Shown here: positions 2,594 to 41,843 of the stretch, in pieces
Layout: each line of letters begins with the position of its first letter
Numbering within the stretch: position 1 is the first letter of the stretch
NCBI GenBank assembly: GCA_018262795.1
Contig: JADFDM010000004.1
Coordinates: 185,155 to 249,154, forward strand
DNA length: 64,000 nucleotides
DNA from: Sphingobacteriales bacterium
Lineage (GTDB): Bacteria; Bacteroidota; Bacteroidia; Chitinophagales; LD1
Direction of reading: 5' to 3'
Notes under the pieces: generated by a model
What the model saw: the letters and a program-made list of their open reading frames with translations, nothing else
Database searches by the model: none
Told to the model about the DNA's origin: nothing
Made by a program: the position numbers and the translations under genes

Positions 2594-5500
2594 ATGCTTT
2601 TTAGTAAATACCAATATCGCAACGCTGACCTAAAAAAAAGAGGTTACTCCCAAAGTTGTATTGCTTTTGACGGAGCAAAACAGTATTGGATAAAATGGGT
2701 TTTAGGAATTGATAAGACCGACACAAAAGCAAAAATTTTAGCAGACAAACTTCGGCACTTGCAGAAAGCAAGACACATTGCTTTGCCGAACATTATTGAA
2801 TATGGATTTGACGATGAGCAACAGGCATACGCAATCGTGTATGAACTTTTAGAAGGAGTTGAAACCTTAGAGGAAAAAGTTTACGAACTCAAAACGCAAA
2901 GTGCAATCAGCAACATCATTGAACTTGCTGATTGTTTGCAGGAATTGCATTTGAAATTTAAAATTAATCACGGAGACATTCACCCTGCCAACATTCTCAT
3001 TGACAAAAACGGACAATTTTATCTTATTGACTTTGGACTTGCTGACATCACGAAAACTTTAAGTCAGGAAAAATCACTTGAAGTATTTGCAAGAGGTTTT
3101 GCCGCACCTGAAAAACTCAACAAACTTGGTTCAAAAGGTTTTCCTTTTCAGTCTGACATTTATTCGTTAGGAAAAGTTCTTGACTGGATGTATCACGAAA
3201 GGCAGGAGGAACTTCCCGAAGAGCAAAACAAGCAACTGCAAAAACTTCTTGCAGAAAATCCAGCCGACAGACCAACTTGGCAACAGGTTTTAGATTTTCT
3301 TAGAAACCTTGCTTCTGCTTCGGAAACCGAAGCAGTGCAAGTTGCATTCAGACAATCCGCTTATGCAAGCGGCTTGCTTGAACTTCTCAATACAACAAAT
3401 CCTATCTACGATATTTCACCGAGAGAAGGACAAAACTATTTATCCGACATCATCATTGGTGAATACATCTGCGAAGGTGTGATTTGGCTGAAAGAAGAAG
3501 ATAAACTTTTGTTCAATGGGGTTAAGCGACTTGCAGATATTGACCCAAAGTATTTAGAAAGGAAAAGAAAGGAAGGGAAGAAACTCCCCTTCAAGTTTTC
3601 TTACACGGTGGACTACACTCACAACAAAGCAGACCTAACACCTTATTTTCAAAAATGGTTTGAGCAAAAGCAAACACAGGTTTCACTTCGTGAAAACCGA
3701 AAAGCAGTAAGAGAAGAATTGGGATTCTATCGTGAGCTACTTGAAAAGGAAAAAGAAGTTATCGCCAAAAATTCTTTGCGACTTCAATACTCGAACTTTG
3801 AAATAAAAGGCGATGAAATAATTTTTCACGTCAAGCATAACGACAAATGCAGCAGTATTGGTTTTGTGCTAAAGCACATTGAAGACGGTAACGATGTAAA
3901 TTCAGAAGGTTGCGAGTATGTTGTTTCAGCAAGTGGCGACAGAAAGCAAAACAAAGAGTCAGTTGAGTTTGTAGGTAAGCCATATGAGTTTCATTCACAA
4001 GACGGACTTTTTAAAATCAAAGATTGTGAACGGTTGAAAAGAGACAGCATTCCGCAATCAGGTTTCTTGTTTGAGAACACAAACAAAAAGGAAGAAGAAA
4101 AGAACCGACAACTTGATGCAATCCGAAAAGTTGATAAGAACGAAGTGCAAAATCCCGACTTGATTTATTTTCTTTTCAAACCTGATGAACTTCCTTCTGC
4201 TTTTAGCGACTATACAGACGACTTGATTGTAAAACAGAAAGACACAAGCGGCAAGCCACTTGTTTATTCTTACAATCAACAGAGAGCAATTCAAAACGCA
4301 CTGCTTCGCGGTCCGCTTTCAGTTATTCAGGGACCGCCAGGTACAGGCAAGACAACTGTAATTACCGAAATAGTTTTTCAGATTCTTGCACATAAACCCG
4401 AAGCAAAAATTCTAATCACTTCGCAAACCAACAATGCAGTTGACCAAGTGTTGGAAAACCTTTTGAAGAATGAAATTCCAATTCTGCGATTAAGCGGAAT
4501 CACTGCACCGAGAATACAAAGCATACGCAAGCACACATTGGACAGAAAGTTGGAAGGGTGGAAACAATTAGTGCGTGAAGCAGCCGAAAAGAATTTCAAA
4601 GAGCAAGAGGCAAAATTCAAAGAGCAACTGCAAAGCAAAAATGCTTTTGCAGTTGCCGTTGTGGACATCATTCTTGAAAACAAGGATTGGAAGAAAACGA
4701 AAGAGAAAATTGAAAATGCAGTTGGCAGAGTTCAGAATTTGAAAACACTTCACAAGTTAGCTGAGGATAGAGAAAAAGCGATTGAGCAAATTGACGAAGT
4801 GTTGAAGATTAAACTTTCGGACTTTCTCAATCTGCATAAACTGCATCGTGATTGGATTGTAACGATAAACGCTTTGGATGAAAAAAGCGCAATCAATCAG
4901 AAGTTGATTGACAGCATTCGTGTAATCGGAGCGACTTGCAACCACATTGCAGCGAAGAAATACGCCAAATACAATTTTGAGTTTGACTATGTGATAATGG
5001 ACGAATCGGGCAAAGCCACAACAGCCGAAGCACTTGTTCCGATAATCACAGGCAAGAATTTAATTTTCGTTGGCGACCACAGGCAGTTGCGACCAATGCT
5101 CACAACCACAAGAGAAGTTGAAAGTTGGTTGAGAGAAAAGTTCAAGAAGGAAGCAGACGAAGGAGAATATTGGGAGGATTACTTCAACCGACCAAGTTTG
5201 TTTGAGCAAGTAATCACACGAATTGAACCCGACTACAAAGCACAGTTGACAGAGTGCAGGCGTTCATCAGCAGAGCAAGTGAAACTAACTTCAAAATGTT
5301 TTTATGAGTTAGTGAATGATGAACCTATTGAGCCAGTGAAAAGAGATGTTTCAGCCGAACACAATTTGCCTTTGGCAATTCAGTCATCAATATTTTTCAT
5401 TGACACAGGCAGCGACATCAAACACAAGATTGACGACAGAACAAAATCTTCTTTGAATGAAGTAAGTGCTCAACTCATTCCCGAAATTTTGGAACTGCTC

Positions 5501-5941
5501 AACAAGTTTGACAAAGTGAAAGAATATTCTTTTGGAGTGATAACAGGTTACACAGCACAATTCCGTTTGCTGAAAAAGAACATTGACAAAAAGAGATTTC
5601 AAAACAAAATCAATTCAGTTTGGAAATGGAACAAGTCTGAAGAAAAATTAACCGTGTCAGTTGTTGACCGCTTTCAAGGATTGGAAAGAGATATTGTAAT
5701 TGTTGACTTGGTGAAAAGCGGAGCAGGTTTGAATTTGGGTTTCTTGGAAGTTCCGAACAGAATCAATGTTGCTCTTTCACGACAAAAGAAATTACTCATA
5801 ATCGTTGGCGACTATCACGGAATTATCAATGCAAAAACAAAACGACTGAACGGAGAGAAAGCCGCTTTGCAACTTTATCTTGAATCGTTGAAACCCGACT
5901 GGATCGTAAAAGCGGAACAGATAAAAGAACTTTTCAAATGA
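2594..5941 (+). CDS. mkoA: Mokosh type I MkoA-like protein: Ser/Thr kinase fused to SF1 (COG1112) helicase
   Basis: This 1115-residue cytoplasmic protein joins two enzymes. The N-terminal eukaryote-like kinase (about 1-240) appears catalytically complete: a candidate ATP-binding Lys34, the catalytic loop HGDIHPAN with Asp128 and Asn133, and DFG at 146-148. A middle region of about 300 residues is unassigned. The C-terminal half is an Upf1/COG1112-type helicase with Walker A GPPGTGKT at 580-587, Walker B IMDESG around Asp803-Glu804, a VVDRFQGLERD motif near 1024-1033, and an arginine motif NVALSR at 1058-1063. A kinase-helicase fusion followed by a PLD nuclease is the published architecture of type I Mokosh anti-phage systems. 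The 3' end overlaps the next start by 4 nt (ATGA), which indicates translational coupling. Confidence 0.88.
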   Translation: MLFSKYQYRNADLKKRGYSQSCIAFDGAKQYWIKWVLGIDKTDTKAKILADKLRHLQKARHIALPNIIEYGFDDEQQAYAIVYELLEGVETLEEKVYELKTQSAISNIIELADCLQELHLKFKINHGDIHPANILIDKNGQFYLIDFGLADITKTLSQEKSLEVFARGFAAPEKLNKLGSKGFPFQSDIYSLGKVLDWMYHERQEELPEEQNKQLQKLLAENPADRPTWQQVLDFLRNLASASETEAVQVAFRQSAYASGLLELLNTTNPIYDISPREGQNYLSDIIIGEYICEGVIWLKEEDKLLFNGVKRLADIDPKYLERKRKEGKKLPFKFSYTVDYTHNKADLTPYFQKWFEQKQTQVSLRENRKAVREELGFYRELLEKEKEVIAKNSLRLQYSNFEIKGDEIIFHVKHNDKCSSIGFVLKHIEDGNDVNSEGCEYVVSASGDRKQNKESVEFVGKPYEFHSQDGLFKIKDCERLKRDSIPQSGFLFENTNKKEEEKNRQLDAIRKVDKNEVQNPDLIYFLFKPDELPSAFSDYTDDLIVKQKDTSGKPLVYSYNQQRAIQNALLRGPLSVIQGPPGTGKTTVITEIVFQILAHKPEAKILITSQTNNAVDQVLENLLKNEIPILRLSGITAPRIQSIRKHTLDRKLEGWKQLVREAAEKNFKEQEAKFKEQLQSKNAFAVAVVDIILENKDWKKTKEKIENAVGRVQNLKTLHKLAEDREKAIEQIDEVLKIKLSDFLNLHKLHRDWIVTINALDEKSAINQKLIDSIRVIGATCNHIAAKKYAKYNFEFDYVIMDESGKATTAEALVPIITGKNLIFVGDHRQLRPMLTTTREVESWLREKFKKEADEGEYWEDYFNRPSLFEQVITRIEPDYKAQLTECRRSSAEQVKLTSKCFYELVNDEPIEPVKRDVSAEHNLPLAIQSSIFFIDTGSDIKHKIDDRTKSSLNEVSAQLIPEILELLNKFDKVKEYSFGVITGYTAQFRLLKKNIDKKRFQNKINSVWKWNKSEEKLTVSVVDRFQGLERDIVIVDLVKSGAGLNLGFLEVPNRINVALSRQKKLLIIVGDYHGIINAKTKRLNGEKAALQLYLESLKPDWIVKAEQIKELFK

Positions 5942-7263
5942 CAGACGAAGAAGCATACAAACAATTAAAAGATAAAGCACCGACAGGTTACAAACTGAAC
6001 GAATTGATTCTGTTCAGTTATCCTGTGCGGAAGTTGCGTATGGATGTACTTGTAAACAAGCAGCCAGACGGCTCACTTGTGAAGGTGTATAATGTGTTGC
6101 TTCGTGCGATTCAATCAGGTTTTCATTCACAACAAAAGCTCTTTGAGTTTCTGGGATTAGGACTAACAGACGAATTTATTTTAAGAGAACTGTTTGCCTT
6201 GCGTGAGAAAGGTTATGTTGATTTGGTTTCGGAGAAGTGGATAGTAACTCCTACTGACGGAGAAAAATTTTTAAAGGATAATACGATACTAAGAATTGAG
6301 GAAGAAGAAGAATTTGAATTTTTAGTTGACGGTATTTCGGGAGAAATTATTTCAGTAAAAGAAAATCCAACCGAGAGAAACAAACTCATAAAGTTTTTAG
6401 AACCTGAATTGAAACTTGCACCGAAAAGTCCTGACCTTTTGGAGAACAAATTTCAAGAGTTGGCTGATGTTTATAAACAAGAACACGAAAGCAAATCTTA
6501 TCTCATCAATTATGCACCTGACGAAATCAAGCGGGACTATGAGGAGTGGTGTAACTATTGGCTGATTGAATACATACCCGATAAGAAAAGTAATCAAGAG
6601 GCAAAGTTGGAAGTGCGAACATTTGAGCAACTAAAGCCAATCAAAACACTTACAGCAAAATTCAATTCAGAGTATAAGCACTTCATTTATGCTTTAAGCA
6701 ATTCCGATAGAACAGCGTTTGAAGAATTGACGGAAGTAATTGAAGAACCGATTCAAATTGAAACTCCCAAAAGCGATTTCAGCACTCTGACAATTTGGGA
6801 AACGAAGTTGAAGTTTATTGAAGCATTGAGAAATGTGAAAGAGAAAATTCTAATTGAAAGCCCTTGGATAAAAAGAGCAACGCTGGACTACATTCATCAT
6901 TTTGAAAAATTACTTAAAGAGAAAAAGCAGCTGGTAATTCTTTACGGCATCAGTGAGAAAGACGAACACGACCATTTTACTTTGAAGAAAGTTGAAGAGT
7001 TGCAAAAGCAATTCAAAGACACTTTCAAACTCATTCATTTGCCAACTCACTTTGCAGAAAGCAAATCAAAGCTGACCGGCACACACCGAAAACTTGTAAT
7101 CAAAGACAGCGACTATTACATTCAGGGAAGTTTCAATTTTCTTTCTTTCGGAAAAACAGAAAAGCAACAAGTCGCTAACGAAGAATCACTTTTAATTTCA
7201 AAGGATGTAAAAAAGAAATGGGAACAGGTTGTAAAAGAATATGCACTGAAACTAAAACCATAG
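5938..7263 (+). CDS. mkoB: Mokosh type I MkoB-like PLD-family nuclease
   Basis: This 441-residue protein is predicted to be the effector nuclease of the operon. The N-terminal ~110 residues look like a winged helix (about 50-105). The middle is unassigned. The C-terminal domain (about 285-441) carries one phospholipase D signature: His383, Lys385, Asp390, then Gly397-Ser398 and Asn400 (HxK-x4-D-x6-GS-x-N). One HKD copy per chain is usual for PLD nucleases that work as dimers. The start codon overlaps the stop of the kinase-helicase gene, so the two are almost certainly co-translated. In Mokosh both proteins are needed for phage resistance; that statement is from the literature and not shown by the sequence. 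Confidence 0.85.
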   Translation: MTDEEAYKQLKDKAPTGYKLNELILFSYPVRKLRMDVLVNKQPDGSLVKVYNVLLRAIQSGFHSQQKLFEFLGLGLTDEFILRELFALREKGYVDLVSEKWIVTPTDGEKFLKDNTILRIEEEEEFEFLVDGISGEIISVKENPTERNKLIKFLEPELKLAPKSPDLLENKFQELADVYKQEHESKSYLINYAPDEIKRDYEEWCNYWLIEYIPDKKSNQEAKLEVRTFEQLKPIKTLTAKFNSEYKHFIYALSNSDRTAFEELTEVIEEPIQIETPKSDFSTLTIWETKLKFIEALRNVKEKILIESPWIKRATLDYIHHFEKLLKEKKQLVILYGISEKDEHDHFTLKKVEELQKQFKDTFKLIHLPTHFAESKSKLTGTHRKLVIKDSDYYIQGSFNFLSFGKTEKQQVANEESLLISKDVKKKWEQVVKEYALKLKP

Positions 7264-18404: not shown

Positions 18405-20621
18405 TTATGGACAAGAAATAGCAGTAAACACCGCAGCTCCACCATCTGATACCGTTAAGCGAAAGCAACTTCCGTTAGGCGATTTCATGATTACGCCTTT
18501 CGAGACATCGCTGATATACACATCACCACCGGTAACTTCTACCTTACTTCTGGGGGTAGCTGTGCCAACGCCCAAATTGCCGCTGTCATCCACCGCTACC
18601 ACGCTGGTTGTTTCAGTATAAATATAAAGCTCGAATTGGATAGTTAAACTGTTAATACTGTTAGAAACATTGGCCCAGTAAATAGCACCGCTCGTATAGC
18701 AGCCATTGCAGATACCATACACCAATCCACCTGTATTTGCTTGGCTGACCCCATCATCTAAAATAAAGACAAGGGTTTGTCCGGCCGTTACATCGGCTCC
18801 TCCCGGTATTGGGAAGTAGTTCCAACCCGTAGTTAAACTGGCTGCAGATTTGGTATAGCTGCCCAACTCGGTACCGGTTATTGAATTAGCCATCAAGTGC
18901 ATAGTAATATCTACTGTGCCGGGGCTAGTTAAATAAACACGAATGCCTTTTACTTTACCGTTATTCGTTACTTGAAATGATTGCCCAACCCACTGATCAA
19001 CCGCCCAAGTATTGTCGTGAGTAGGGATATTTGTATCCAATACACTATCACCGGCTAACGTTGTAGTTACTTGAAAAGGCATGGTAGGATCGTGAGTGCC
19101 TAAGCTAACTCCATTACTGTTAGCTACGAAAGTGCAAACAGTATCGGTAGATACCATTAACTGAATTTCGCGGATACTCATCCATGGAGCTGTCGGATTG
19201 TACGTCTGCGTTACATTCAATTTATAGTAGCGGTAAGCGATACTGTTATTTACATCAAATACAGAAGGTGCCCAACAAAATGATGAAACAGGCGCACTAA
19301 TACTTCTTGAATCAAGTACTGTAAATGTAACGCCATCATTACTCCCTTCAAAAGTCCAAATCTTTGGGCAGCGGTCATCTGCATGGCCGGTGCCAGATTC
19401 GCTTTCGAGGGTATATCGTCTGATAGTCTTTGAATTTCCTGCACCAAAGTCATAAATCAACCAACCAAAGGGCGATCCATAATTGGTAGCCCAATCGGTA
19501 CTGCAATCACCATCAAAAGCAATAGCCCCATCATTAGGTCCACCAAACAAGGAGGAAGAAACAGTTATATTTCCACTGCTTTGAGAAACTACGGCATAAG
19601 AGCCGCTACCAGTAGGATTGCATACATCCATATCACTCAGCATGTGAAGGTCAACTGTTTTAGTGCCACCGGCATCGGTAATGCTTAATAAGTTACCGTT
19701 TAAAGCAAAGTCTGTGTTCAAATCAGTTCCGGCAGGTCCGGTAACTCCTGTCGCTCCAGTGGCTCCAACTGAGCCTGTTGCACCTTGAGGGCCGGTCGCT
19801 CCATCATTACCATCTGCACCTGTGGGGCCTTGTGAACCCGTGGCACCCGTTGCACCGGTATTGCCATTAAGGCCTTGCGGGCCGGTGGCTCCATCAAATC
19901 CATTTGCCCCATCAGCACCGGTTACACCTTGTGGGCCTGTTGCTCCCGTTGCGCCCTGCGGACCCGTGGCACCGGTGGCTCCATCATTACCAGCTGCACC
20001 AGTGGGGCCTTGTGAACCGGTGGCACCTGTTGCACCGGTATTGCCATTAAGGCCTTGCGGGCCGGTGGCTCCATCAAATCCATTTGCCCCATCAGCTCCG
20101 GTTACACCTTGTGGGCCTGTTGCTCCCGTTGCGCCCTGCGGACCCGTGGCACCGGTGGCTCCATCATTACCATCTGCACCAGTGGGGCCTTGTGAACCCG
20201 TGGCACCTGTTGCACCAGGCATACTGTTACCGGCATATAAGGCATAAGGTACACTGAGCAGTTGAGCTGTGCCCATGTCTGCATACACGATTCCGCCTGT
20301 AGGGTCAATTTCTACTTGTAAGTATTTATCGCCACTACCCCAGTTCACGGTGGCGAAAGTTCCTTGCACTACCGTGCCACTGCCTATAGCTACAGTGAAC
20401 AGACCAAACTGGTTGGTAGTAGCCGCCTGTGTTTCTTGATACACTACCGTACCGGTGCTGTTTCCATCGTGAACCGAGAACCGAAGCCCCACACTTTGAT
20501 TAGTAAGTACCGTTCCCTGCGCATCGCGGGCTACAGCTTGATAGTTTACTAATTGAGGAATTTGGGCGTTGGCCAGCAAGCTAATGTAGGAGACCAAAAG
20601 GAGTAAAATGCTTTTTCTCAT
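18405..20621 (-). CDS. secreted collagen-like repeat protein with discoidin-like domain
   Basis: This 738-residue exported protein begins with a signal peptide (about 1-20, ending ANAQ). An N-terminal domain of about 110 residues is of the kind often found before collagen repeats in Bacteroidota. Residues about 133-295 are Gly-X-Y triplets dominated by [10 protein letters not shown] and [10 protein letters not shown], encoded by a 180-bp DNA tandem repeat. A domain at about 350-490 looks like an F5/8 type C (discoidin) carbohydrate-binding fold ([26 protein letters not shown]). The C-terminal part has a second beta-rich domain and the segment [16 protein letters not shown], common in surface and tail-fibre-like proteins. 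It is likely a cell-surface filament or adhesin. Confidence 0.85.
19801..20217 (-). repeat. 180-bp coding tandem repeat (2.3 copies)
   Basis: Copies start at 19801, 19981 and 20161 (partial), with only a few substitutions between copies. Each encodes a 60-residue collagen-like block, so copy-number change keeps the frame. Confidence 0.95.
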
Positions 20622-36908: not shown

Positions 36909-39062
36909 TTATTCAGAAGCATACATTTTTTGGTAACGCGCAAGTGCCCAAATCGGGAAAACATTTCTATAAGCAGTATAGGTAATTCCGCAACTATGGT
37001 TAAATACCCCGCTAATTCCTTGTTGAGGGAAATCGCCATTTCTCATTTGCTTCTTCAAGAGGTAGTCAGTCCCGCGTTTAACAACATCTTTGCCGGGATA
37101 GTTAGCTTCCATAAGTGTAAGCAAGGCCCATGAGGTGTTGACAATCTGCGACTCTTCGTGAAAAATATATTCCTTTTGTAAGCAACTTTTAAAACTCTCC
37201 CCCCATCCTCCATCTTTGTTCTGCTTAGACACTAAAAACTCACAAGCTGCTTTTATTTCAGGAGAAGGAATTTCTCCCGGACGATAAGGACGAAAGCCTG
37301 CGGCCAACAAACCCTCTACTCCAAACCATGTTCCGTATGTGAAACAAATAGCCCATGATCCATACCACGATCCATCTGCTCTTTGCTGTTTTCTGATAAA
37401 GTTTACTCCTTTGGTGATAGATCGGCCAATTTCCCGTTGGCGGTAATCTGGAAATTGAGTTCTATACTTAGCCAATGCCTGCACACAGGCCGAACTGCAC
37501 TCGGTGTAGCTATAATCAATCATGATGTTGCCGAATATTTCGGAAGGATTCAGAAGCTCTAACCATTTAGGGCCTCGCGTTTTTTCATAACTCGCCCATC
37601 CTCCATCGTTGTTCTGAAACGACAGCAGCAAGTCAACGGCCTTTTTTAAACGATGGTCTCCGATACGTTTTTGGGGATCCTCTAACATTACTTTCATTGC
37701 TTCGGCAGTACAGTCGGTGATAGGCCATCCGTGCTCTAAGGTGGAAAAAGGCCAACCGCCCACGGAGTCGTGCCGATGATATTTTTTGTGCTCTTTGACT
37801 TCTGTTTGTACTTGTGATTTTTCAATAAAATCTAATGCCCGCTCTGTGAAATCGGTAAATTCTTTCTGCCTGCCGCTTTCCCTTACTGCCTGCACGGCAA
37901 ATACTGTATCCCAAAGTTGGGAGCCATTATAACCGTTCATTTTCATGCCGTCTTCGGCTAACCACAAATAATCGAACCAACGGCCAAAGTGTTTTTTTAA
38001 CCGGTCTGAATTTTTCCCATAGGCATGGTAAATACAAATAGAATTAAGTACTTGGTTCACCGGCCCTAAGTTGATAAAGTTAGTCTGCTCATCTTCTGCA
38101 TTAATGCCATCAAGAATGTAGTTTAAAGCTTTCTCCCTCCACTTTGCTAAAGAAAGTTTTTCGTAAGTATTGGTACATAAATTCAAAATTCGCAGAAGCG
38201 GAGTAGGCGTAGTGTACTGATCCGTTGCCGCACAACTATTTCTAGATTCTTCCCAATTTATTTTTTCATAAGGGATAGTAAATAGCTCATTCCGAAGTTC
38301 TTGAATCAACCCATTTTCCTTCATCGTAACTCTATGGCCATAGCAGTAGGCCATCGGCAAATAAACCATCCGCGTGTGGCACCAGTAGCGAGAGGGGTGA
38401 AACGGGAGCCATTTGGGGAGCAACCACATTTCAGGAAAAAGAGAATTACATCCTTCCCAGCTATATACGCCCAATATTGAAAGATAAAATTTTCCCCACG
38501 ATGGAATTGCTGTGGCTCCTCCATGTTTTAGAATCCACTGCCTTGCTTTTTGAAGTTCAGGAGAGGTGGCACCATGCCCAAGCAGGCGAAGTGCGACATA
38601 TTGTAATACGGTTCCAAACATGGTGGATACCCCTTCAATGTGTAATCCCCATCCGCCATCTTTCCGTTGATGATTTAAAAAATACTCCGCAATGAGGTGT
38701 TGATGCGCATCAGGTAATGGGCTTTCTGTTACATACGAGGCAATCACCAAGCCGGGCAACAAAAACATAGGCCCCCCATAATCTCCCGGCAAATGACCGT
38801 CTTCTGCTTGCAGTTGAGCATAGTAATGAATGGCATTATATACTGCTTCACTCACCGTTTGGGCGGAATCCATTTCACGCTCATCAGCAACTTTAGTGCT
38901 TCGGTATATGCCATCACTTGAGTTTTTATTCCGGCTTTCTTCGTCCCTAAATGTTTTGATCATTTCGTTCAGGTCAGCCTTACTCTCCTTGTTACACTCC
39001 CATACTTGCCTTCCATGTTTTGAAAGCAAGAACCAGCCTGTCGTTAATAGATTATTTGTCAT
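36909..39062 (-). CDS. oxidosqualene cyclase (cycloartenol/lanosterol synthase type)
   Basis: This 717-residue triterpene cyclase should fold (3S)-2,3-oxidosqualene into a tetracyclic sterol. It has the eukaryotic acid motif DCTAE (Asp450) instead of the DxDD of squalene-hopene cyclases, several QW repeats (QxxDGGWG, QNNDGGW, QRADGSWYGSW, QMRNGDFPQ), and long blocks matching plant and animal sterol cyclases (RYWCHTRMVYLPMAYCYG, WLELLNPSEIFGNIMIDYSY, TYGTWFGVEGLLA). Tyr378 in GYNG, His444 and Ile448 in HGWPITDCTAE occupy the positions of Arabidopsis CAS1 Tyr410/His477/Ile481, which favour cycloartenol over lanosterol. The gene is divergent from squalene synthase, separated by about 196 bp to the ATG at 39259. 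The protein is probably membrane-associated. Confidence 0.96.
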   Translation of the reverse strand: MTNNLLTTGWFLLSKHGRQVWECNKESKADLNEMIKTFRDEESRNKNSSDGIYRSTKVADEREMDSAQTVSEAVYNAIHYYAQLQAEDGHLPGDYGGPMFLLPGLVIASYVTESPLPDAHQHLIAEYFLNHQRKDGGWGLHIEGVSTMFGTVLQYVALRLLGHGATSPELQKARQWILKHGGATAIPSWGKFYLSILGVYSWEGCNSLFPEMWLLPKWLPFHPSRYWCHTRMVYLPMAYCYGHRVTMKENGLIQELRNELFTIPYEKINWEESRNSCAATDQYTTPTPLLRILNLCTNTYEKLSLAKWREKALNYILDGINAEDEQTNFINLGPVNQVLNSICIYHAYGKNSDRLKKHFGRWFDYLWLAEDGMKMNGYNGSQLWDTVFAVQAVRESGRQKEFTDFTERALDFIEKSQVQTEVKEHKKYHRHDSVGGWPFSTLEHGWPITDCTAEAMKVMLEDPQKRIGDHRLKKAVDLLLSFQNNDGGWASYEKTRGPKWLELLNPSEIFGNIMIDYSYTECSSACVQALAKYRTQFPDYRQREIGRSITKGVNFIRKQQRADGSWYGSWAICFTYGTWFGVEGLLAAGFRPYRPGEIPSPEIKAACEFLVSKQNKDGGWGESFKSCLQKEYIFHEESQIVNTSWALLTLMEANYPGKDVVKRGTDYLLKKQMRNGDFPQQGISGVFNHSCGITYTAYRNVFPIWALARYQKMYASE

Positions 39063-39125
39063 AATGTAGTAATTGTAAAAGTATAATACTTACCATTTTC
39101 TAAGTGGTATTAAGAATTAACAAGA

Positions 39126-39149
39126 TGATGATTGTGAGTATAATCATCA
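39126..39149. promoter_or_regulatory. palindrome in the divergent sterol-gene promoter region
   Basis: TGATGATT and AATCATCA form perfect 8-bp arms around an 8-bp spacer, near the middle of the intergenic region between the cyclase and squalene synthase genes. It could be an operator serving both directions; no matching regulator gene is nearby. Confidence 0.45.
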
Positions 39150-39200
39150 GACAATCAATGTAATAAACAATATTTTCAAATTATCAACAGCATTTTGTGA

Positions 39201-39235
39201 AAAATTCGCTTTCGTAAAAGCAGAAAATTCGCTTT
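39201..39235 (+). promoter_or_regulatory. two 12-bp direct repeats upstream of squalene synthase
   Basis: AAAATTCGCTTT occurs at 39201-39212 and again at 39224-39235, 23 bp apart (about two helical turns), ending 23 bp before the ATG at 39259. The spacing suits a protein-binding site, but no function is shown. Confidence 0.45.
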
Positions 39236-39258
39236 ACTTGCAACGAAAATTACGCAAG

Positions 39259-40467
39259 ATGATGTTAGATATCATATCCACCGCAATTAAGCCATCAGAA
39301 CTAAGTTCTGTTTTAAAGTTAAAGCTATCGCTTTCACTATGTCGTAAAAGAGCTTACAAATCTTCCTTAAACTCTCTTGCAGAAGATCTTAGTGACCGAG
39401 AATTTTGTTTGGCGGCTTTAACTAAAGTATCTCGATCTTTTGCGGTGGTTATTCAGCAACTGCCCAATGAATTACAGGATGCTGTTTGCGTGTTTTACTT
39501 GATTCTGCGCGGACTTGACAGCGTGGAGGATGACATGAACCTTTCTATAGAGAAAAAACTGAACCTACTTCGCAATTTTCACAGTAAGTCAATGGAACCG
39601 GGTTGGAGCCTGACCGAAATTGGGGATTCGGTAGAATACCGACAATTGCTGGCTAATTTTCAAAAGGTAGTAGCGGCATATTTGCGTTTGAAACCATCGT
39701 ATCGCAACATCATCAAGAACATCACTTATCAAATGGGGCAAGGAATGGCAGACTTTGCCGAAAAGAAAATACAGACTACTGCCGACTATAACCTTTACTG
39801 CCATTATGTAGCAGGATTAGTGGGTATTGGATTATCTCAAATTTTTTCTGCATCGGGATATGAGTCTTCTTTTTTGGAGCAGCAGAAAATAATCGCCAAC
39901 TCCATGGGGTTATTTTTACAAAAGACGAATATTATTCGCGATTACTTCGAGGACATCGAGTTGGAAAGGACTTTTTGGCCACCACAGATTTGGGCAAAAT
40001 ATGCAGAAAAATTAGAAACACATAAACTGTATCCTGAATCCCCTGAGTCTATTGCTTGTCTCAATCACATGATAGCAGATGCGTTGCAACATGTGCCCGA
40101 TTGTGTCGCTTATTTGAAGATGATTCAGCACCCCAAAATATTTCGTTTCTGTGCTATTCCGCAAGTAATGGCGATGGCTACGCTAAATAAAATTTACAAT
40201 AATCCGGATGTGTTTAGAACGAAGGTGAAAATCAGAACTGGTTTAGCCGCTCGTCTGATGGTAGAAACGAACTCAATGGAACGCTTTAATTCTTTTATGG
40301 AAAAGTTTACTTACAAACTGATAAGTAAACTTTCTGCGGAAGATCCAAATTATCTGATAACTAAGAAGCGACTCCACAGAATTATTGAAGCGATTGATGC
40401 CACTCGAGTAAGTCACAGTATAGCGCCAGATGGCAATGATAATATTGAAGAACGAGTCCTCTTTTGA
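39259..40467 (+). CDS. eukaryote-type squalene synthase (farnesyl-diphosphate farnesyltransferase)
   Basis: The ATG at 39259 is preferred to an upstream TTG, giving about 402 residues. The enzyme condenses two farnesyl diphosphates to presqualene diphosphate and reduces this to squalene. The two Mg-binding motifs are DSVED (about 87-91, in FYLILRGLDSVEDDM) and DYFED (about 228-232, in LQKTNIIRDYFED). YCHYVAGLVGIGLSQ, SMGLFLQKTN and CAIPQVMAMATLNKIYNN match animal and plant squalene synthases far better than the HpnCD enzymes of hopanoid producers. The C-terminal membrane anchor of eukaryotic enzymes is absent. The squalene epoxidase gene starts 5 bp after the stop. Confidence 0.95.
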   Translation: MMLDIISTAIKPSELSSVLKLKLSLSLCRKRAYKSSLNSLAEDLSDREFCLAALTKVSRSFAVVIQQLPNELQDAVCVFYLILRGLDSVEDDMNLSIEKKLNLLRNFHSKSMEPGWSLTEIGDSVEYRQLLANFQKVVAAYLRLKPSYRNIIKNITYQMGQGMADFAEKKIQTTADYNLYCHYVAGLVGIGLSQIFSASGYESSFLEQQKIIANSMGLFLQKTNIIRDYFEDIELERTFWPPQIWAKYAEKLETHKLYPESPESIACLNHMIADALQHVPDCVAYLKMIQHPKIFRFCAIPQVMAMATLNKIYNNPDVFRTKVKIRTGLAARLMVETNSMERFNSFMEKFTYKLISKLSAEDPNYLITKKRLHRIIEAIDATRVSHSIAPDGNDNIEERVLF

Positions 40468-40472
40468 TAAGA

Positions 40473-41843
40473 ATGAAACCGATTTACGATATCTGTATAG
40501 TTGGAGGAGGGGTAACGGGAGCGTGCTTAGCGAGCTATTTAGGCAAAAGTGCGCTCAAAGTAGCAGTGATAGAAAGAAACCTAAACGAAAAGGATCGAAT
40601 TGTAGGCGAGCTATTGCAGCCGGGAGGAGTGGAGATGCTGGAAAAAATGGGCTTAGAACATTTGCTCGATGGGTTTGATGCGCAATCAGTGGATGGGTAC
40701 GCACTTTTTATGAAGGGAGAAAGTTTTGAGATTGGCTACCCTGAAAAGGATGGGAAGAGATATGCCGGAAGAGGTTTTCGGAATGGGAAGTTTGTACAGA
40801 AGCTGCGAGCTTATATGCAGGCTCAAAAAAATGTAACTGTCATTGAAGGAACCGTTAACGAACTATTGGAAACAGACAAGCGAATTGTTGGAGTCAGTTA
40901 CACAACACCAAGGGCTGTGGAGGCAAAGGAGATAACCGCTACCCTAACGATTGTTTGCGATGGGATTTTTTCTACTTTCCGAAATACGCTATCGGTTCCA
41001 AACAAAAGTGTGACTGGGTTTTTCTTAGGGCTGATTTTGAAAGATTGCCAGCTTCCCTATCCCAATCATGGGCATGTAATTATTGCTGAATCTTCTCCCA
41101 TTTTAATGTACCCGGTCTCTTCCACCGAAACTCGTATATTAGTTGACTTCCGGGGAATCAAAGTTCCGCCCAAACGAGAAGAGTTGCAAAATTATCTGAC
41201 CTCTTCGATCGCCCCTCAATTGCCATCTTCCGTTCAAAGTTCCTTTCTAAAATCAGTAGAGGAAGGCAAGTTTAAATTAATGCCAAACCACCGAATGGCG
41301 GCTAATCCAAACCTAAAGCAAGGAGCGGTGTTAATAGGAGATTCGCTGAACATGCGACACCCTTTAACAGGTGGTGGGATGACGGTAGCTTTTAGTGATG
41401 TTTATCTTTTGGGAAGTCTTTTGATGAAAATGAAGAATCCAAAGAGGGGCACACAGTGGGAAAGAGTTGTTCGGCAATTTTATGAATCCAGAAATCAACA
41501 AACGGCCACCATCAATATTTTGGCAGATGCTCTGTATGGAGTAATGGGCAACAAAGAGTTGAAAGAAGCATGCTTTAATTACTTGAAGCGAAGCGGCTCG
41601 TATTCTCAAGAACCGATAACAATTCTTTCGGCCATATCGCGCGATTCGAATCTGCTTATCAAGCATTTTTTTGCGGTAGCACTATTCGGAATAAAGGGAA
41701 TTCTTATGCCTATTCCGACTGTTACCAAAGCTAAAAGATCTTTGTCTTTACTCTCAAATTCGGTTCGCATCATTTATCCTTTACTAAGAAATGAGAAGAT
41801 GCTTCGTTTGCAAAATTTGCGGCAATTCATCGTAAAATATTAA
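40473..41843 (+). CDS. squalene monooxygenase (squalene epoxidase)
   Basis: The ATG at 40473 gives a 456-residue FAD enzyme that uses O2 and a reductase to make 2,3-oxidosqualene. The N-terminal Rossmann motif IVGGGVTGACLA starts near residue 9. The epoxidase motif VGELLQPGG (44-52), the DG motif in CDGIFSTFR, SSTETRILVDFRG, and the GD motif GDSLNMRHPLTGGGM (289-303) follow the eukaryotic enzyme closely. The C-terminal part has hydrophobic helices (LLIKHFFAVALFGIKGI) for membrane association, as in human SQLE. It forms an operon with squalene synthase and, with the divergent cyclase, completes an oxygen-dependent sterol route. Confidence 0.95.
   Translation: MKPIYDICIVGGGVTGACLASYLGKSALKVAVIERNLNEKDRIVGELLQPGGVEMLEKMGLEHLLDGFDAQSVDGYALFMKGESFEIGYPEKDGKRYAGRGFRNGKFVQKLRAYMQAQKNVTVIEGTVNELLETDKRIVGVSYTTPRAVEAKEITATLTIVCDGIFSTFRNTLSVPNKSVTGFFLGLILKDCQLPYPNHGHVIIAESSPILMYPVSSTETRILVDFRGIKVPPKREELQNYLTSSIAPQLPSSVQSSFLKSVEEGKFKLMPNHRMAANPNLKQGAVLIGDSLNMRHPLTGGGMTVAFSDVYLLGSLLMKMKNPKRGTQWERVVRQFYESRNQQTATINILADALYGVMGNKELKEACFNYLKRSGSYSQEPITILSAISRDSNLLIKHFFAVALFGIKGILMPIPTVTKAKRSLSLLSNSVRIIYPLLRNEKMLRLQNLRQFIVKY

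Follow-up and report, generated by a model that had tools for sequence, protein, structure and literature searches.

In a stretch of 64,000 nucleotides from a Sphingobacteriales genome (the window, C14:185155-249154, on a contig of 322,698 bases), three adjacent genes encode squalene synthase (SQS), squalene epoxidase/monooxygenase (SQE) and an oxidosqualene cyclase (OSC) predicted to be a cycloartenol synthase (CAS). All three are real, intact genes. Taken as a whole, the locus is very probably a cycloartenol-forming sterol cassette, and we infer the activities of its enzymes, their product and a role in the membrane. The features are as follows.

36909..39062, minus strand: OSC, predicted CAS, 717 amino acids (Pfam, NCBIfam and solved-chain matches, catalytic triad)
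39063..39258, no strand: divergent intergenic region between OSC and SQS, 196 bp to the first SQS ATG (39259)
39238..40467, plus strand: SQS, eukaryote-type, at most 409 amino acids; open reading frame (ORF) start TTG at 39238, first ATG at 39259
40464..41843, plus strand: SQE, at most 459 amino acids; ATG candidate start at 40473

SQS and SQE run in the same direction and OSC is divergent from both. The intergenic region, 175 bp with a G+C content (GC) of 0.257 when counted to the TTG start of SQS (39238), presumably holds both promoters. A sequence-only reading of this DNA had placed 5 bp between SQS and SQE, which is correct for an SQE start at the ATG at 40473; in its longest ORF, which begins with TTG, SQE overlaps SQS by 4 bases. 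We infer that the two genes are co-transcribed. The GC of the cassette is 0.415, versus 0.422 for the window.

The claim in that reading of three adjacent eukaryote-type sterol-entry genes in a Bacteroidota genome is borne out by matches to TIGR01787, TIGR01559, PF08491 and solved chains. SQS scored 447 bits against the squalene-synthase equivalog TIGR01559 (cut-off 287) and only 60 bits against the HpnD model; among solved chains its strongest matches were squalene synthases or farnesyltransferases (265-314 bits), and bacterial dehydrosqualene synthases scored 29-34 bits. Its Asp-rich motifs DSVED and DYFED occupy residues 94-98 and 235-239. SQE matched PF08491 (304 bits), the FAD-binding family PF01494 (77 bits) and the solved squalene monooxygenase 6c6n (309 bits), and carries GELLQPGG from residue 48 and GDSLNMRHPLTGGG from residue 292. 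In OSC both the N and C domains of the Pfam SQHop_cyclase type were matched. The protein scored 718 bits against TIGR01787 (squalene/oxidosqualene cyclases), above the curated cut-off of 323, and 269 bits against TIGR01507 (squalene-hopene cyclase), below the curated cut-off of 431; among solved chains, human lanosterol synthase gave 734 bits and a bacterial squalene-hopene cyclase 145 bits. These scores agree with the earlier view that the enzymes are not hopanoid-type, and every motif named there was located, including the DCTAE acid, the catalytic Asp450 (37713-37715). The equivalents of His232 and Tyr503 are also present, as His229 and Tyr492.

Predicted product of the cassette

The earlier reading left the product unnamed; the Y/H/I triad of the OSC lets cycloartenol be named as the likely one. 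The triad was read from an alignment that combined 57 bacterial OSCs (window included) with two eukaryotic chains, one human and one plant-type, and from which the own-genome copies L001 and L002 and the duplicates L017, L019, L024 and L061 had been omitted beforehand. Tyr378, His444 and Ile448 of the window OSC correspond to human positions 381, 449 and 453 and form the full CAS triad. In PMC5101207, Y,H,I at these positions is called invariable in CAS (one sentence there gives predicted CAS the letters Y,H,V, in our view a slip), and PMC4919349 gives a complete correlation of I453 with cycloartenol and V453 with lanosterol in the bacteria tested. The OSC of Fluviicola taffensis likewise reads Y,H,I (PMC5101207), and cycloartenol was found in that species by gas chromatography-mass spectrometry, homologues of the genes downstream of osc being reported absent (PMC4919349). 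Together with this precedent, the triad points to cycloartenol as the predicted product of the window OSC. Among the 57 bacterial OSCs (window included), 28 read Y/H/I, 2 read Y/Q/I, 22 read Y/N/V and 5 read Y/Q/V, and the 27 V453 rows come from records titled as Methylococcales groups except L039 (titled Gammaproteobacteria only). The window OSC shares 49% identity with the human chain, 41% with the plant-type chain and 50-67% with the other aligned bacterial OSCs.

In principle the three enzymes are enough to take farnesyl diphosphate to a C30 sterol, as the earlier reading had held. SQS would join two farnesyl diphosphates into squalene, which SQE, FAD-dependent, would convert with O2 to 2,3-oxidosqualene. 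Asp450 of the OSC would then protonate the epoxide so that the rings close, and with the Tyr/His/Ile triad the cascade would finish in a C-19 deprotonation, giving cycloartenol and not lanosterol. The final product would probably stay cycloartenol or be only slightly modified.

Several points weigh against this interpretation. The OSC scored 717 bits against TIGR03463, a 2,3-oxidosqualene cyclase subfamily, below its curated cut-off of 851, and the eukaryotic OSC rows were limited to one human and one plant-type chain. Sterol genes alone do not guarantee sterols, because Corallococcus coralloides has squalene epoxidase and CAS homologues with a single mark in its row of Table 3 in PMC4919349, a study in which five myxobacteria were tested and only four made sterols. 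The host genome further holds, outside the window, an ERG4/ERG24-family reductase (238 bits; G000:C4:57592-58800, L098 9488-10807), four genes of the FA_hydroxylase family (PF04116) and one cytochrome P450, which together make later sterol steps possible; a C-24 reductase of geranylgeranyl-reductase type (PMC12004948) would be another such enzyme.

The earlier statement that no C-4 or C-14 demethylation genes are in view should be qualified by these genes outside the window. A longer sterol pathway, fed by the cassette and continued by the reductase and other enzymes encoded elsewhere, is nonetheless unlikely. Family searches covered the host's own genome within 16 genomes per search (19 for Sterol_MT_C). 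The reductase had two significant solved matches, both named Delta(14)-sterol reductase, and no match in 14 control genomes, and genes with Sterol_MT_C (sterol-methyltransferase-like; 80-84 bits) were found in three of the 16 OSC-positive relatives and own genome searched (L208 8292-9278 in G010, L209 8990-10009 in G020 and L210 8190-9206 in G023). These matches favor a longer pathway. Against it, the reductase at 209 bits or more occurs in 7/10 OSC-positive and 6/8 OSC-negative members of the genus, a count that omits the fragments found in G007 (135 bits) and G001 (102 bits). It was therefore rejected as a partner of the cassette, there being no association with OSC across the genus; one possibility is that it acts on sterols from outside. 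The reductase has a P450 close by, at a distance of 0.1-1.3 kb, in G006, G010 and G013.

The searches of the host genome gave no match to the Rieske domain (SdmA-type) or to Sterol_MT_C. The best solved matches of the host P450 were a putative P450, LUTEIN DEFICIENT 5, carotene epsilon-monooxygenase and many bifunctional P450/reductases; among the best 60 of 546 such matches no sterol demethylase was named, and the protein has no likeness to CYP51. Full C-4/C-14 demethylation is thus unsupported. An NCBIfam scan of two of the four FA_hydroxylase genes gave OlsE as the sole match, far under its cut-off, and with four PF04116 genes an ERG25-type oxidation is possible. With no Rieske or Sterol_MT_C match and a P450 unlike CYP51, an early, little-modified sterol, which the sequence-only reading had thought possible, is our best guess. 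The same reading had proposed a whole-genome check for hpnCDE and shc. The family search found a single cyclase C-terminal domain in the host genome, so that no squalene-hopene cyclase was found, and the cassette SQS was the sole SQS_PSY match, so that neither HpnC/HpnD nor a separate phytoene synthase was found.

It is very unlikely that the window OSC makes lanosterol or parkeol rather than cycloartenol. The Methylococcales V453 OSCs, which PMC4919349 classes as lanosterol-type, share 51-55% identity with it, and this would favor such a product. Their triads read Y/N/V (22) or Y/Q/V (5) where the window has Y/H/I, the two Methylothermaceae rows (55%, the nearest outside Bacteroidota), from metagenome-assembled genomes (MAGs), also read Y/H/I, and position 453 tracks the product completely in the strains of PMC4919349.

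Formation of a non-sterol triterpenol of arborane type from oxidosqualene is more improbable still. Eudoraea adriatica, likewise a Bacteroidota, reportedly has an arborane-type product; the window OSC carries the cycloartenol triad, and the Eudoraea sequence lies outside our alignment. In PMC4919349, whose lipid analysis includes one Bacteroidetes only, Eudoraea OSCs fall in subgroup 2a, lanosterol-type by sequence and apart from F. taffensis.

Distribution and genome setting

OSC was found in 19 of the 60 nearest relatives (own genome included): 10/18 members of the genus, 7/12 other members of the family and 2/30 genomes elsewhere in the order. A draw of 395 Bacteroidota genomes gave 10 OSC-search matches. 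One was the own genome and four had 35-36% identity (443-451 bits); the remaining five were partial (32 bits or less) and were not counted as OSC. A contig scan with patterns from the window OSC, a method that reaches close relatives only, found 45 loci in Bacteroidota and Methylococcales groups as well as in two MAGs of Methylothermaceae and one of Akkermansiaceae. The OSCs of the three MAGs (L021 and L022; L029) read Y/H/I and group with the Bacteroidota copies. Some contigs bear two handles (L017=G012, L019=G005, L024=G006, L061=G013, L023=G037).

Adjacent SQE and SQS genes divergent from OSC were seen in 17 distinct Bacteroidota genomes, window included. The layouts were:

Divergent layout: window, G002, G005, G008, G010, G012, G020, G023, G025
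Divergent layout, further: L018, L027, L043, L044, L045, L049, L052, L056
G037: SQE first, SQS 1.9 kb beyond
G019: SQE/SQS pair downstream of OSC, opposite strand
L025: SQS 1.9 kb off, no SQE match on the 7.9-kb contig
G018, G024, G047: SQE/SQS pair on a different contig
L020: neither SQS nor SQE within 10 kb
G006, G013: contig ends fall between the cassette parts
G007, G011, G028: OSC at a contig edge or on a short contig, layout unreadable

Another Bacteroidota group has an SQE-OSC fusion of about 1140-1160 amino acids (L176 1417-4836 in G448, both Pfam domains confirmed; L177 16-3486 in G357), with a frame of 1179 amino acids in L179 (G326) and a copy in G302 that is truncated near a contig end. 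A convergent Sterol_MT_C gene near the fusion is likely a sterol methyltransferase. Fused SMO/OSC (squalene monooxygenase/OSC) proteins appear in the methods of PMC10070321, and PMC10202945 counted SMO plus OSC in 103 bacterial isolates and 21 MAGs.

The host genome comprises 3,480,339 bases in 19 contigs and is 98.42% complete. Upstream of the cassette are ORFs that read as ftsA and ftsZ (judged from the translations, not by family scan) and downstream is FtsK (Pfam). With such neighbors on a long contig of a near-complete genome, eukaryotic contamination, the objection that the sequence-only reading had raised against itself, is very unlikely. The window carries an SCO1/SenC gene, which fits an O2-respiring host. 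Elsewhere in the window, two overlapping genes at 2594-7263, encoding a kinase-helicase (PADLOC MkoA, 452 bits) and its partner (MkoB, 87 bits), are likely a Mokosh anti-phage defence system, and a protein of 738 amino acids at 18405-20621 combines an F5/8 type C domain with three stretches of collagen triple helix.

Inheritance and transfer

Trees were made by a quick method from 42 of the 59 OSC rows (13 Methylococcales and 4 partial rows dropped), 29 FtsK rows (G007 had no match), 33 SQE rows and 26 SQS rows (two identical); L049 was taken for G011 in comparing them. The same subclades recur in the OSC, FtsK, SQE and SQS trees: window and G008 (support 100, 96, 95 and 100), G002 and G005 (99 in each), G012, G006, G010 and G013 with G011 or L049 (99, 99, 88 and 97), and G020, G023 and G025 (99-100), with G028 included where present, in the FtsK tree. 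This repetition of the FtsK subclades argues for vertical inheritance within the genus. Placed on the FtsK tree, OSC presence requires at least five changes, gains and losses counted alike, and two whole subclades, {G001, G016, G017} and {G004, G009, G014, G015}, are without it; five of these seven genomes are 93-99% complete and the other two 73 and 89%. Within the genus vertical inheritance with loss fits, losses being presumed over repeated gains.

Some placements speak against pure vertical descent. The OSC of G019 joins the Akkermansiaceae copy (support 100), and G019 pairs with G024 in SQE (99) and SQS (100), while the FtsK tree instead places G024 with G018 and G021 (98); the SQE of G047, from another family, stands beside the G012 set (93), and the OSC of G018 with {G002, G005} (90, on a long branch). 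A Bacteroidota-only OSC clade (27 rows, a group picked after viewing the tree) was rejected by the approximately unbiased (AU) test (p 0.00018). The cassette genes have been transferred between phyla. The proposal of the sequence-only reading that the cassette is mobile or vertically kept can thus be divided: it would have been vertical within the genus, and deeper, copies would have crossed phyla. The Akkermansiaceae and Methylothermaceae OSC genes are close in GC to their flanks, which argues against chimeric contigs and leaves mis-binning possible.

A single clade of all 30 I453 bacterial rows was not rejected (AU p 0.14), so that nesting of the Methylococcales lanosterol synthases (LAS) inside the CAS set is unproven. 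The deeper forks of the OSC tree are weakly supported, and with rooting on the human and plant-type rows all bacterial rows lie on one side, in a set that excludes F. taffensis, myxobacterial and most eukaryotic OSCs. We suggest only tentatively, as a doubtful scenario, that CAS is the older state in this bacterial OSC clade and that a deep and diverse base of Bacteroidota Y/H/I enzymes gave rise to the Methylococcales V453 LAS and to the Verrucomicrobiota and other gammaproteobacterial copies by transfer and a product switch within bacteria. Recent import from a eukaryote was rejected as far as two eukaryotic rows allow, the OSC being nearer the bacterial rows and its GC that of the window; an ancient eukaryotic origin, discussed for Group 2d in PMC4919349, is possible.

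In 14 FtsK regions of relatives (5.7-19 kb) the cassette was found in none. A LolA match adjoins FtsK in 12/14, and other window genes were matched in two: L189, with a pair of genes for an aldose-epimerase and a coiled-coil protein some 10 kb from FtsK, and L201, with an SprB-repeat protein and an acyl-CoA dehydrogenase, both 35-36% matches. With gene order around FtsK so fluid, no empty insertion site can be called.

Known systems and significance

The sequence-only reading knew bacterial sterols only from scattered lineages, and it missed the Bacteroidota F. taffensis and its cycloartenol (PMC4919349). This kind of system is already known from that species, and the cassette described here is a well-kept further example. 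Earlier literature may already list some of these OSCs, and we claim no first report. Like the present host, F. taffensis is a Bacteroidota with a Y/H/I OSC (Fluta_3214; SQE is Fluta_3221), its sequence being outside our alignment. Unlike here, where SQS-SQE and OSC are immediate divergent neighbors in a Chitinophagales-type lineage, its OSC and SQE locus tags are seven apart. Group 2d (Wei et al. 2016) comprises two bacterial CAS and eight Methylococcales LAS (PMC4919349). The Methylococcales OSCs share 51-55% identity and Tyr at 381 with the window OSC, but have V453, and SQE, where found, comes after OSC on the same strand, the stretch giving no match to SQS. The pathway of Myxococcaceae (Stigmatella, Cystobacter) resembles the one proposed here in its CAS product and few downstream genes, and PMC12004948 reports that its OSC was passed on vertically within the family; it differs in phylum and in the place of its OSC in subgroup 2c (PMC4919349).

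Predicted de novo sterol synthesis in Bacteroidota thus extends from one cultured species to a trait of much of a genus and family. Because sister lineages with and without the cassette exist, the role of sterols in bacteria becomes testable by comparison. The sterol-methyltransferase-like genes of G010, G020 and G023 could allow a plant-like step to 24-methylenecycloartanol. Bacteroidota with the cassette are candidate non-eukaryotic sources of plant-type sterols, which bears on the reading of sterane and cycloartenol biomarkers.

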